Source: Candidatus Kryptobacter tengchongensis
GTDB lineage: Bacteria > Bacteroidota > Ignavibacteria > Kryptoniales > Kryptoniaceae
Assembly (NCBI GenBank): GCA_001485605.1
Contig: FAON01000010.1
Span: 124,001 to 188,000, forward strand
Direction: 5' to 3'
Length of the DNA stretch: 64,000 bases
The notes beneath the pieces are model-generated. The model saw nothing but the letters and a program-made list of their open reading frames with translations, was not told the DNA's origin and did no database searches. Of this stretch, positions 25,398 to 42,620 are shown piece by piece. A program made the position numbers and the translations under genes. Position 1 is the stretch's first letter; each line of letters starts with the position of its first letter.

Positions 25398-25457
25398 TTT
25401 TAAACCGCTGTATTAGGTTTTGTAAATTTTAACACGTTAAGGATTTAAATTTTAAAA

Positions 25458-25886
25458 CTGGTGTGGGTCTGTAAGCCAAATTCTGTCTATCTCACCTTAA
25501 AGGTGAGAAGAGGCAGTTATTTCTCTTTGCGACCCACCCGAGAGTCTTCCGTCCCAACTTCAGTTGGGACGGAACCGAGGCGGGCAACCTCGGCTCCGCT
25601 CACCACTGAACAGAGGTCCTCTCCTATTTGGTCTTGCTTCGTAAGGGGTTTACCTTGCTCCCGATATCGCTATCGGGACGGTGGGCTCTTACCCCACCTT
25701 TTCACCCTTACCCCGACTTAAAAAGTCGGGGCGGTATGTTTTCTGTGGCACTTTCCATTTCCAGCGGATATAGCCACTGGAATTTCCGATTGCTCGGAAC
25801 TTACTGCCCTGCGAAGTTTGGACTTTCCTCCCATTCGTCCCAATGATTACATTGGAACAAATGGGCAACTGCCCGACCCACACCAG
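25458..25886 (-). ncRNA. rnpB: RNase P RNA (bacterial type A)
   Basis: The minus strand folds as the catalytic RNA that trims tRNA 5' ends. P1 pairs 25875-25886 with 25458-25469 over 12 bp. Universally conserved stretches are present in order: GAGGAAAGTCC (25820-25830), ACAGAAAACATACCGC, AGGGTGAAAAGGTG, GGTAAGAGCCCACCG, GGTAAACCCC, ACCAAATAGG and GAATTTGGCTTACAGACC at the 3' end. Long G/C hairpins within it (for example CCCGACTTTTTAAGTCGGG) are its peripheral helices. The 5' end is only 2 bp from the stop of the zinc-ribbon gene, so it may be cut from a longer transcript. Confidence 0.97.
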
Positions 25887-39545: not shown

Positions 39546-39682
39546 GGCTTAAGATGGGTTTTGTTTTTAAAGCCAGATAAATTTTAATCAAAATTGAAAA
39601 TTAAATCAAAGTTTTTCCTTGCAAAATGAGCGTAAAATTTATATATTTCAACTAAAGAAAACCTGAGAAGTGAAAATTTAAA

Positions 39683-39808
39683 ATGGTTCAATTAAGACAA
39701 AGCGATACAGGTTTAAATACCGCAAACCTCATTATGTATCAGATTTCCTTCCGAGTTTGTTTTTATGCCCGCTATTTTGCCCAGTGGTGGCGCAACCACT
39801 GGGCTTGA
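39683..39808 (+). CDS. Leader peptide rich in Phe, Tyr and Trp before the aromatic operon
   Basis: An ATG at 39683 opens 41 codons that end at TGA 39806-39808. The product has 3 Phe, 3 Tyr and 3 Trp; of its last 19 residues, 8 are aromatic (RVCFYARYFAQWWRNHWA). The Trp codons are at 39785, 39788 and 39800, inside a 10-bp hairpin. The next gene (39915) is DAHP synthase, the entry step to all three aromatic amino acids, and tyrA follows. Codon use, length and place are those of an amino-acid-sensing leader peptide. A weak purine stretch (GAGAAG, 39664-39669) lies before the ATG; a second in-frame ATG at 39734 could be the true start. Confidence 0.7.
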   Translation: MVQLRQSDTGLNTANLIMYQISFRVCFYARYFAQWWRNHWA

Positions 39809-39899
39809 GATAAATTCCAACCATTACAGCTACTTTCCAACATTTTCCCAGAAATTGCCAAATTATCTTTTTTTAAGTAATTTTTTAAACAAAAAATTA
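39779..39899 (+). promoter_or_regulatory. Leader hairpin and alternative pairings upstream of DAHP synthase
   Basis: GCCCAGTGGT (39779-39788) pairs perfectly with ACCACTGGGC (39795-39804) around a 6-base loop, and this stem holds the Trp codons and ends at the leader stop. AGTGGTGG (39783-39790) could instead pair with CCAACCATT (39818-39825) with a one-base bulge, and CTGGG (39799-39803) with CCCAG (39847-39851). An A/T-only 9-bp hairpin (39878-39899) sits directly before the ribosome site GGAGGTG (39901-39907). I see no convincing G/C-rich terminator, so control could act on translation. The rest of the 39546-39914 gap shows nothing else. Confidence 0.5.
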
Positions 39900-39914
39900 T
39901 GGAGGTGAAAGAAC

Positions 39915-40937
39915 ATGATAGTTGTTATGGAACCTGATGCAACCGAGGAACAAATTCAAAATGTCATAAAAATTTTAAATGAATATGGCTTTGATGTCCA
40001 TCGCTCTACAGGGGTTACAAGAACTGTCCTTGGTGCAATTGGCGTAAAACCAGAATTTGATCACCGAAATATTCAGCTTCTACCTGGCGTTGCTGAGGTC
40101 TATAGAATAACAGAACCATATAAATTAGCAAACCGTGCCTTTAAACACGAAGGAACAATTATAGACATAAATGGGGTAAAAATAGGTAGCAACATTGAAG
40201 AAATCGTGATTATGGCTGGTCCCTGTGCCGTTGAAAGCGAAGAACAGATATTTACAATAGCAAAACATGTAGCTGAAAATGGAGCTAAAATATTGCGAGG
40301 CGGGGCTTTTAAACCAAGAACCTCACCATATTCATTCCAAGGACTTGGTGAGGAAGGTTTAAAACTTTTAAGGTCAGCTGCTGATGAATATGGCTTGCTT
40401 GTTATAACTGAAGTCCTTGATACAAAAGATATACCTTTGGTCGCAAAATATGCTGATATACTTCAAGTTGGTGCAAGAAATATGCAAAACTTTGCCCTTT
40501 TAAAAGAGCTTGGCAAAATTGACAAACCAGTGATGTTGAAAAGAGGAATGGCTGCGACAATTGAAGAATGGCTTATGGCTGCTGAATATATACTTGCCGG
40601 TGGAAACCACAATGTAATACTATGCGAAAGAGGTATAAGAACTTTTGAAACATCAACAAGAAATACACTTGACATAAACGCCATTCCCGTTATTCACAAA
40701 AAAAGCCATCTACCAATAATCGTTGATCCATCACACGCAACTGGAATAAGAGATAAAGTTATTCCCATAGCAAGGGCTGCAATTGCCGCTGGAGCTGATG
40801 GTTTAATTGTTGAAGTGCATAATCAACCCGAAAAGGCAAAATCCGATGGACCCCAATCACTATACCTTGACCAATTCACACAGCTTATGAAAGAAATAAA
40901 AAAAATAGCGGAAGCAATAGGAAGAAAAATTTTATAA
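39915..40937 (+). CDS. aroF: 3-deoxy-7-phosphoheptulonate (DAHP) synthase, type I-beta
   Basis: The enzyme joins phosphoenolpyruvate and erythrose-4-phosphate, the first step to Phe, Tyr and Trp. The 340 residues include an N-terminal ferredoxin-like regulatory domain (about 1-75) as in Thermotoga DAHP synthase, where it is a feedback site, then the barrel: MAGPCAVESEEQ near 98, LRGGAFKPRTSPYSFQG, KRGMAATIEEW, LCERGIRTF and VDPSHATG. A strong GGAGGTG ribosome site lies 8 bp before the ATG. It is followed by tyrA after 4 bp. The upstream leader peptide suggests control by aromatic amino acids. Confidence 0.95.
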   Translation: MIVVMEPDATEEQIQNVIKILNEYGFDVHRSTGVTRTVLGAIGVKPEFDHRNIQLLPGVAEVYRITEPYKLANRAFKHEGTIIDINGVKIGSNIEEIVIMAGPCAVESEEQIFTIAKHVAENGAKILRGGAFKPRTSPYSFQGLGEEGLKLLRSAADEYGLLVITEVLDTKDIPLVAKYADILQVGARNMQNFALLKELGKIDKPVMLKRGMAATIEEWLMAAEYILAGGNHNVILCERGIRTFETSTRNTLDINAIPVIHKKSHLPIIVDPSHATGIRDKVIPIARAAIAAGADGLIVEVHNQPEKAKSDGPQSLYLDQFTQLMKEIKKIAEAIGRKIL

Positions 40938-40941
40938 ACCT

Positions 40942-42030
40942 ATGTTCAACAAAATTTCAATTATTGGAACCGGTTTAATCGGAGGCTCAATAGCTCTTTC
41001 ATTGAAACAATCAAAAGAACATAATTTCACAATCACTGGATTTGATATTGATCCTCGTTCACTTGATCTCGCTTTTGAGATCGGAGCGATTGATAAAAAA
41101 ACTAATTCAATTGAAGAAGCAGTAAAAGATGCAGAAGTGGTTTTCTTGTGCACGCCGGTTAAAGAAATTCTGAAGTTAATTCATACAGTGTCAAGTTATG
41201 CAAGAGCAGGAACAATAATAACCGATGTTGGAAGTGTAAAAAAAATTGTCCTAAAAGAAGCGGAAAAAATTAAAAAAGATGTTTATTTCATCGGCGGTCA
41301 CCCTATGGCTGGATCGGAAAGAAGAGGTATAACTTCAGCTGACCCATTCCTTTTTGAAAACGCTGTATATGTGCTATGCCCAAGTTTCAATGTCCCAATA
41401 AAGATGGTAAATGAATTTATTGAATTAATAAAGTTAACAGGGGCAAATATAATACTACTTGACCCCGAAATTCACGATAGGATAGCAGGATATATAAGTC
41501 ATCTCCCTCAATTAATTGCTGTTTTACTTGTCAATACAGCTGGAAGCATGGGAACAGATTACTTATCTTTATCTGGCGGTGGCTTTAAAGATTTAACACG
41601 AATCGCATCAAGTCAGTTTGAAATATGGCGTGATATAATTTACTTCAACAAAGAAAAAATAATTGAAGCACTTGATAATTTTATCAATGGACTTAACAGA
41701 TATAGGGATCTTATCAAATCCGATAGAATAGATGATTTCAAATCAGAATTTGACAATGCTTTTAAATTAAGAAACGAGATACCATCAAGCCGAAAGGGCT
41801 TCATAAATGTTTTGCACGATGTGTTCATAATGGTTGAAGATAAACCCGGTGTTTTAAGCAAAATTTCAACAGCGTTATATCAAGGTGGATTGAATATAAA
41901 AGACATTGAACTTTTGCGAGTGAGGGAAGGTATAGGTGGGACATTTCGTCTTTCCTTTGGAAGCGATAAAGATGCTCAAAAAGCAATTGAAATAATAACA
42001 GAACTTGGCTATAAAGTTTTCACAAGATGA
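40942..42030 (+). CDS. tyrA: Prephenate dehydrogenase with C-terminal ACT domain
   Basis: TyrA oxidises prephenate to 4-hydroxyphenylpyruvate for tyrosine. Seen: Rossmann motif IIGTGLIGGSIALSL near 5-19, FLCTPV, TDVGSVK, GGHPMAGSERRGI near 115 and a helical dimer domain. The last ~70 residues (VEDKPGVLSKISTALYQGGLNIKDIEL) form an ACT domain, often a tyrosine sensor. It lies 4 bp after aroF and overlaps the kinase gene by 4 bp (ATGA). Confidence 0.94.
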   Translation: MFNKISIIGTGLIGGSIALSLKQSKEHNFTITGFDIDPRSLDLAFEIGAIDKKTNSIEEAVKDAEVVFLCTPVKEILKLIHTVSSYARAGTIITDVGSVKKIVLKEAEKIKKDVYFIGGHPMAGSERRGITSADPFLFENAVYVLCPSFNVPIKMVNEFIELIKLTGANIILLDPEIHDRIAGYISHLPQLIAVLLVNTAGSMGTDYLSLSGGGFKDLTRIASSQFEIWRDIIYFNKEKIIEALDNFINGLNRYRDLIKSDRIDDFKSEFDNAFKLRNEIPSSRKGFINVLHDVFIMVEDKPGVLSKISTALYQGGLNIKDIELLRVREGIGGTFRLSFGSDKDAQKAIEIITELGYKVFTR

Positions 42031-42620
42031 TAGAAAAAATTTTCAACATATTCAAAAGAAAAAACGAACAAAAAGAGACACTTAAGATAAAAATAAATCC
42101 ACGAACACTTGTAGTTTTATGTGGGGTTGCAGGAAGCGGGAAATCAACATTTGCAAAGAAATTTTTTAAACGAACTCAAATTGTTTCCTCCGACCATTGT
42201 AGGGCTTTGATTTCAGATAATCCAGCAAATCAAGCGGTGTCAAAACATGCATTTGACCTTTTCTATTTCATAATTGAGAAAAGATTACTTGTTGGAAGAT
42301 TAACAGTTGCAGATGCAACATCCCTTTCAAAAGAAACAAGGCGACAGTTGATTGAAATAGGAAGAAAGTACGGTTTTAAAATAGCAATAATCATTTTTGA
42401 TATCCCGCTTGAAATTTGCATAGAAAGAGATAAGAAAAGACCAAGGAAAGTCGGCGAACAAGTTATAAGAAATCAATACATAAATTTTCTTGAAGCAAAA
42501 AAATCAATACCGACAGAAGGATTTGATGAAATTTTCATTCTAAACGAAGAAACACTTGATACAGCAGTTGTTGAAATAATTCCCACCTATGTTACACCAA
42601 ATAACTCAGCAAGTTTATGA
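42027..42620 (+). CDS. P-loop kinase (AAA_33/polynucleotide-kinase-like)
   Basis: The 197-residue protein has Walker A GVAGSGKST at 33-41, VSSDHCRALI near 54, a VADATSLSK motif near 95 and a ERDKKRPRKVGEQVIRNQY lid with the Arg pairs of the PNKP/zeta-toxin-like kinase group. Substrates in this group include RNA 5' ends and small metabolites; I cannot tell which. It is the third gene of the aroF-tyrA unit by ATGA overlap. Its last 34 bp overlap the 3' end of the convergent membrane-protein gene. Confidence 0.75.
   Translation: MIEKIFNIFKRKNEQKETLKIKINPRTLVVLCGVAGSGKSTFAKKFFKRTQIVSSDHCRALISDNPANQAVSKHAFDLFYFIIEKRLLVGRLTVADATSLSKETRRQLIEIGRKYGFKIAIIIFDIPLEICIERDKKRPRKVGEQVIRNQYINFLEAKKSIPTEGFDEIFILNEETLDTAVVEIIPTYVTPNNSASL

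Follow-up and report, generated by a model that had tools for sequence, protein, structure and literature searches.

Comparative analysis supports the view that a 41-codon open reading frame (ORF) in the 64,000-nucleotide stretch of Candidatus Kryptobacter tengchongensis DNA studied here (the window) is a conserved and, by all appearance, translated leader peptide ahead of aroF-tyrA. It is likely that this leader belongs to a ribosome-mediated attenuator, which would set aroF-tyrA expression according to how much charged tRNA is available for Phe, Tyr and Trp. The leader would probably thereby act as a gauge of all three end products of the pathway. The features concerned are collected in Table 1.

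Table 1. Elements of the leader region and the operon, with window coordinates
Feature	Position	Strand	Description
Promoter	39619..39647	+	TTGCAA-17-TATATT; predicted from sequence
Leader peptide ORF	39683..39808	+	MVQLRQSDTGLNTANLIMYQISFRVCFYARYFAQWWRNHWA followed by a stop codon, 41 codons; read from sequence, kept in relatives
Candidate anti-Shine-Dalgarno	39744..39752	+	TTTCCTTCC in leader; conserved, partly complementary to the Shine-Dalgarno of DAHP synthase
Aromatic codon cluster	39749..39802	+	F, F, Y, Y, F, W, W, W; 8 of the last 19 codons
Trp hairpin	39779..39804	+	GCCCAGTGGT-GGCGCA-ACCACTGGGC, 10 bp; 26-nt inverted repeat
Spacer, leader stop to Shine-Dalgarno	39809..39899	+	G-depleted, C-rich; candidate Rho-loading region, from composition
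Shine-Dalgarno of DAHP synthase	39901..39906	+	GGAGGT; read directly
DAHP synthase, type I beta, ferredoxin-like domain	39915..40937	+	Regulated gene; DAHP_synth_1 1.5e-86, DAHP_snth_FXD 3.2e-21 (Pfam)
Prephenate dehydrogenase (tyrA), ACT domain	40942..42030	+	4 nt past DAHP synthase
AAA_33 P-loop protein	42027..42620	+	Overlaps tyrA

An aromatic-rich leader and its conservation

A direct count in the window sequence gives three Phe, three Tyr and three Trp codons in the leader, and 106 nt separate its stop codon from the ATG of DAHP synthase. The sequence-only reading that preceded this analysis had given these figures, the length of the ORF and the share of aromatic codons near its end, and every count was re-derived from the sequence. 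With the window's own amino-acid frequencies, eight aromatic residues among 19 codons would arise by chance with P = 3.6e-4, and at least three Trp in 41 codons with P = 0.009. A background of 321 short ORFs from 28.3 kb of 5' regions in five Kryptonia genomes, window included, points the same way, with the proviso that such statistics rest on samples of the genome (2.68 Mb in the source organism, whose named near relatives are Ca. Kryptonium, Thermokryptus and Chrysopegis). Specifically, at least three Trp occur in three of the 321 ORFs, one of which is the antisense reading of the same hairpin, and at least eight aromatics in 19 codons occur in four; only this leader combines both properties.

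We regard conservation across congeners as the decisive evidence in these sequences, stronger than the chance statistics. The original proposal had staked itself on relatives keeping both the ORF and its aromatic codons, and all seven Kryptonia congeners compared keep the ORF with its aromatic end upstream of DAHP synthase. The locus thus presents what is expected of an attenuator, namely a short ORF, rich in codons for the products, that stands upstream of a biosynthetic operon and is kept in relatives. Nearly all seven leaders end in YAxYFAQWWRNHWA and a stop codon, while the N-terminal half has widely diverged. Gaps within the ORF alignment are multiples of three, and of the 20 sites that vary over the last 16 codons, 11 are third positions. 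In one genome (L014), TGA replaces the second Trp codon, so that the peptide ends FYARYFARW and the later Trp codons are lost; most compared members are metagenome-assembled genomes (MAGs), and this TGA is either real variation or a MAG error.

In another family of the order, hereafter the sister family, a Phe/Tyr leader of unlike sequence precedes DAHP synthase by about 200-315 nt in all 11 genomes with an intact upstream region (L016-L026). These leaders have ends such as FYSYFYFPHRG before the stop codon, and further examples are NFYSYFYFPHRGI, NWLYSYFYFPQWGN and FYSYYYFPLRGK, each likewise followed by a stop. ORFs with at least six aromatics within 13 codons occur in the upstream regions of 6 of 7 Kryptonia and 10 of 11 sister-family genomes, where 0.23 would be expected for either set. 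The promoter is the same as in Kryptonia (TTGCA-N-TATATT in the sister family), a CTTGCA...TATATT pair preceding the leader in both, and a CCCCC-NNN-GGGGG hairpin follows the leader, adjoining its stop codon. Judged by sequence, the architecture is order-wide, with promoter, aromatic codons, a short GC hairpin at the stop and DAHP synthase in succession, while the sequence itself has been rewritten. In each sister-family genome, a start codon (ATG, GTG or TTG) that shares the frame of the aromatic codons follows the -10 box of the promoter by 6-8 nt, a distance that makes it probable that these leaders are made from leaderless transcripts. Three of them (L023-L025) contain the 11-nt sequence CACTCCTTCCC, which is perfectly complementary to the DAHP synthase Shine-Dalgarno (p 0.002-0.01).

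A hairpin in the tryptophan codons

All three Trp codons of the leader lie inside an inverted repeat that ends directly before the stop codon and that the earlier reading did not mention. RNAalifold, applied to seven Kryptonia, returns this Trp hairpin as the sole conserved structure of the leader region; a second, weak structure lies inside the DAHP synthase reading frame. Across the six genomes tested, its stability exceeds that of 96-99.9% of random synonymous recodings that preserve the peptide, and compared with dinucleotide shuffles the hairpin reaches z -3.0 to -5.0 in each of the seven genomes. One compensatory pair is seen, in L011, where CAG/CAC has become CAA/CAT with both codons synonymous. 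In L014, the 3' arm is intact even though it lies past the TGA and is no longer translated.

These data change how the Trp codons are to be read. Because the hairpin also fixes them, their number alone is no proof of Trp sensing, and the earlier use of the three codons as evidence of such sensing by themselves is not supported as put; the Trp codons therefore serve two purposes. The 5' arm of the selected hairpin is located within or directly ahead of the aromatic codons.

A proposed route from ribosome position to operon expression

The predicted promoter is upstream of the leader, which places the leader on the operon transcript, and the AAA_33 gene is likely the last of the operon. In the model favoured here, a ribosome supplied with plentiful aromatic amino acids would complete the leader and depart, allowing the hairpin to form and leaving the C-rich spacer bare, and most transcripts would then be stopped, probably by Rho, or remain untranslated before DAHP synthase. 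If one of the aromatic amino acids ran low, the ribosome would park on the Y-F-W-W-W codons, covering the 5' arm of the hairpin and the stop-codon region; this would prevent the OFF state, and the operon would be expressed. That the hairpin is coupled to where the ribosome stands among the control codons is our inference. In tnaC, a system that high Trp induces, Rho termination in the leader depends on the translation of a short ORF, and a ribosome on the Trp codons beside the stop would shield the start of the spacer here as described there. Against the model, stalling at the first Phe/Tyr codons would leave the ribosome too far back to reach the hairpin or the spacer fully.

Which step is blocked in the OFF state can be stated in graded terms. 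C-rich, G-depleted composition is what Rho loading sites look like, and the spacers of the seven Kryptonia genomes are 1-6% G, with a raised C content of 16-27%. Between -90 and -15, G makes up 1-5% in the seven Kryptonia versus 17% in 117 control 5' regions, only one of which (1/117) combines at most 4.5% G with at least 16% C. Rho is encoded in the genome, so that on composition the locus has the C-rich, G-poor region past the leader and the factor that characterize Rho-dependent leaders. Rho is slightly favoured over Shine-Dalgarno masking as the Kryptonia readout: we tentatively name Rho termination as the blocked step, view translation of DAHP synthase as a possible but more doubtful one, and leave the remainder to other explanations. 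The spacer of the sister family is not G-poor, and Rho is therefore no readout common to both families and an unlikely one in the sister family.

The strongest alternative is translational attenuation, in which TTTCCTTCC would pair with the Shine-Dalgarno (GGAGG) and a slowed ribosome would separate the pair, so that translation rather than transcription is controlled. Codon choice is consistent with it, since TCC makes up 7% of the Ser codons in the window yet is used in every genome with Ser at this site (6 of 7). At 70 C, the TTTCCTTCC site is moreover the favoured partner of the Shine-Dalgarno in 5 of 7 genomes, and the perfect 11-nt complement in three sister-family leaders also speaks for such pairing. 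However, the Kryptonia sites pair with their own Shine-Dalgarno no better than shuffles do (p 0.06-0.52) and no better than with those of other genomes, and the synonymous-recoding test at 37 C yields p 0.03-0.43. Masking relieved by a stalled ribosome would, furthermore, suit the first Phe/Tyr codons only and not the Trp codons. When the RNA was folded with a ribosome placed at successive codons, a switch did not appear consistently at 37 C, and at 60-70 C some genomes showed a modest one. Taken together, this alternative appears rather unlikely.

Less probable by far is nascent-peptide arrest of the TnaC type, in which YFAQWWRNHWA would stall the ribosome upon free aromatic amino acids, so that the peptide and not the codon supply is read. 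Such a mechanism could explain why conservation extends beyond aromatic identity to A, Q, R, N/H and A, and the Trp-rich end at the stop before a C-rich spacer recalls tnaC before its Rho site. Yet the hairpin accounts for Q, N/H, the last A and most codons there, induction by a high amino acid level has the wrong sign for a biosynthetic operon, and the L014 leader ends at its first Trp.

A classical transcription attenuator with an intrinsic terminator, as in E. coli trp or pheA, is very unlikely. The anatomy of the leader is indeed alike, with control codons beside a hairpin that resembles the trpL 1:2 hairpin, and in a distant class member (L032) a Phe/Tyr leader is followed by an apparent textbook terminator with six T. 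In all seven Kryptonia, however, the plus strand between leader and gene holds no hairpin with a U-run; the Trp hairpin alone is conserved, and it is followed by TTGAGATAAA or similar and not by a U-run. The intrinsic-terminator form was rejected on this ground, and without such a terminator the system is therefore not a textbook trp/phe attenuator. Accordingly, the analogy to trp and phe leaders drawn in the sequence-only reading stands for the leader peptide with its aromatic codons but not for the output, as there is no terminator/antiterminator pair. The Rfam leader and T-box families have no match in the window at gathering scores, the leader families have none in L009-L012 or L014 at E<=1, and nothing relevant appears across 15 related loci. 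The only Rfam RNAs in the window are one tRNA and an RNase P class A RNA gene (25456-25884, minus strand, 235.9 bits).

Finally, a repressor operator at 39779-39804 with an incidental ORF, as a near-perfect 26-bp inverted repeat downstream of a promoter might suggest, is scarcely credible, since the motif is present once per genome in 7 of 7 with no other copy even when three mismatches are allowed and is therefore not the operator of a regulon, the ORF frame and the aromatic residues outside the palindrome are conserved, and in the sister family a different palindrome holds the equivalent position with respect to an aromatic leader that also differs.

Precedents, parallels and implications

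The preferred reading, a ribosome-mediated attenuator, has relatives among well-studied leaders. Like the Kryptonia leader, E. coli trpL and pheL have control codons for an end product within or next to a hairpin close to the stop codon of the leader; they differ in addressing one amino acid each and in having an intrinsic terminator and antiterminator, which are absent in Kryptonia. The E. coli ilvL and thrL leaders contain codons for several products of one branched pathway. They are thus multivalent in the same way, but for branched-chain amino acids or Thr-Ile instead of Phe-Tyr-Trp, and with intrinsic terminators. The initial statement that classical attenuators test one amino acid was too strong, given that the thr and ilv leaders read several and that Corynebacterium glutamicum aroR contains Phe-Tyr-Phe.

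The aroR leader, with Phe-Tyr-Phe before aroF (Neshat et al. 2014, via PMC11802643; PMC4046766), is the closest precedent. As those accounts present it, it stands directly before a DAHP synthase operon, and ribosome stalling raises transcription, which resembles the mechanism proposed here. It responds to Phe, the Tyr codon being present but Tyr without effect, according to the account in PMC11802643. It differs in belonging to Actinobacteria and in that the cited accounts report no Trp among its control codons. In Salmonella speF, translation of the short ORF orf34 decides Rho termination in the leader, as described in PMC6386406. Compared with that account and with tnaC, Rho dependence in Kryptonia is proposed from the composition of the spacer.

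In 2010, the authors of one study knew leader-peptide attenuation only from Proteobacteria and Actinobacteria, to which they added Firmicutes (PMC2965389), and a search of the open-access literature found no studied leader peptides in Kryptonia or its FCB lineage. Leader peptides before DAHP synthase are not new in kind. The novelty appears to lie in the lineage, in the joint presence of Phe, Tyr and Trp codons within a single leader, in a hairpin that Trp codons spell out, and in the lack of an intrinsic terminator. We class the system as a variant of ribosome-mediated attenuation that falls outside the classical terminator type. No aromatic leader was found before trpE or pheA in the Kryptonia flanks examined, where the trpE loci other than L142 and L144 have another gene directly upstream, with the head of the trp operon outside the scan.

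An upstream scan of 80 further DAHP synthases and of 118 genomes around one Woesearchaeota genome revealed parallels elsewhere. Aromatic-rich short ORFs occur in the roughly 315 nt ahead of DAHP synthase at 11 of 18 Woesearchaeota loci (L069, L072, L073, L075, L076, L179, L180, L181, L182, L186 and L192), against 0.35 expected and 1 on the reverse strand. They comprise eight unrelated sequences, for instance SFYYFSY, YFFWNFAYFFYFG and LVNWFFYF, each ending at a stop codon. In 8 of the 11, an archaeal TATA-like box begins 27-31 nt ahead of the leader ATG, as would be expected if the transcript were leaderless, and most have a hairpin starting 0-2 nt past the stop, which clearly exceeds shuffles in five only. 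Two of the contigs have neighbours that look archaeal, namely an archaeal helicase domain 4 on one and a GTPase (TGS, MMR_HSR1_Xtn) beside a TrmB regulator on the other. It is possible that these ORFs are leader-peptide attenuators in Archaea, and no report of amino-acid leader peptides in Archaea, Woesearchaeota included, was found in the open-access literature. The broader proposition, that leaders reading Phe, Tyr and Trp supply recur as controls of DAHP synthase with separate origins in Kryptonia, the sister family and Woesearchaeota, working through a stop-codon hairpin that is not an intrinsic terminator and with the archaeal ones acting as attenuators, is one we put forward with some reserve, as not quite an even call.

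Two further observations concern other bacteria. In L032, of the same class, the reverse complement between -160 and -40 from DAHP synthase encodes the leader MQMNSRFVDLFYFYFYFTYGYF, after which CCCCTTGC...GCAAGGGGTTTTTT reads as a textbook antiterminator/terminator pair. In the Desulfobacteraceae loci L112 and L123, leaders with FFWRWWHQNH and YWRWWHPYQ precede DAHP synthase and are followed by T-tailed hairpins, which adds a further phylum in which Trp accompanies Phe or Tyr ahead of DAHP synthase.

If the proposed attenuator is correct, the range of amino-acid leader peptides would widen to include a thermophilic FCB lineage, the hot-spring Kryptonia, and a single leader would be able to gauge all three products of a branched pathway at the enzyme through which that pathway is entered. 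The archaeal parallels, in turn, would let one ask whether coupled transcription-translation is used for attenuation in Archaea.
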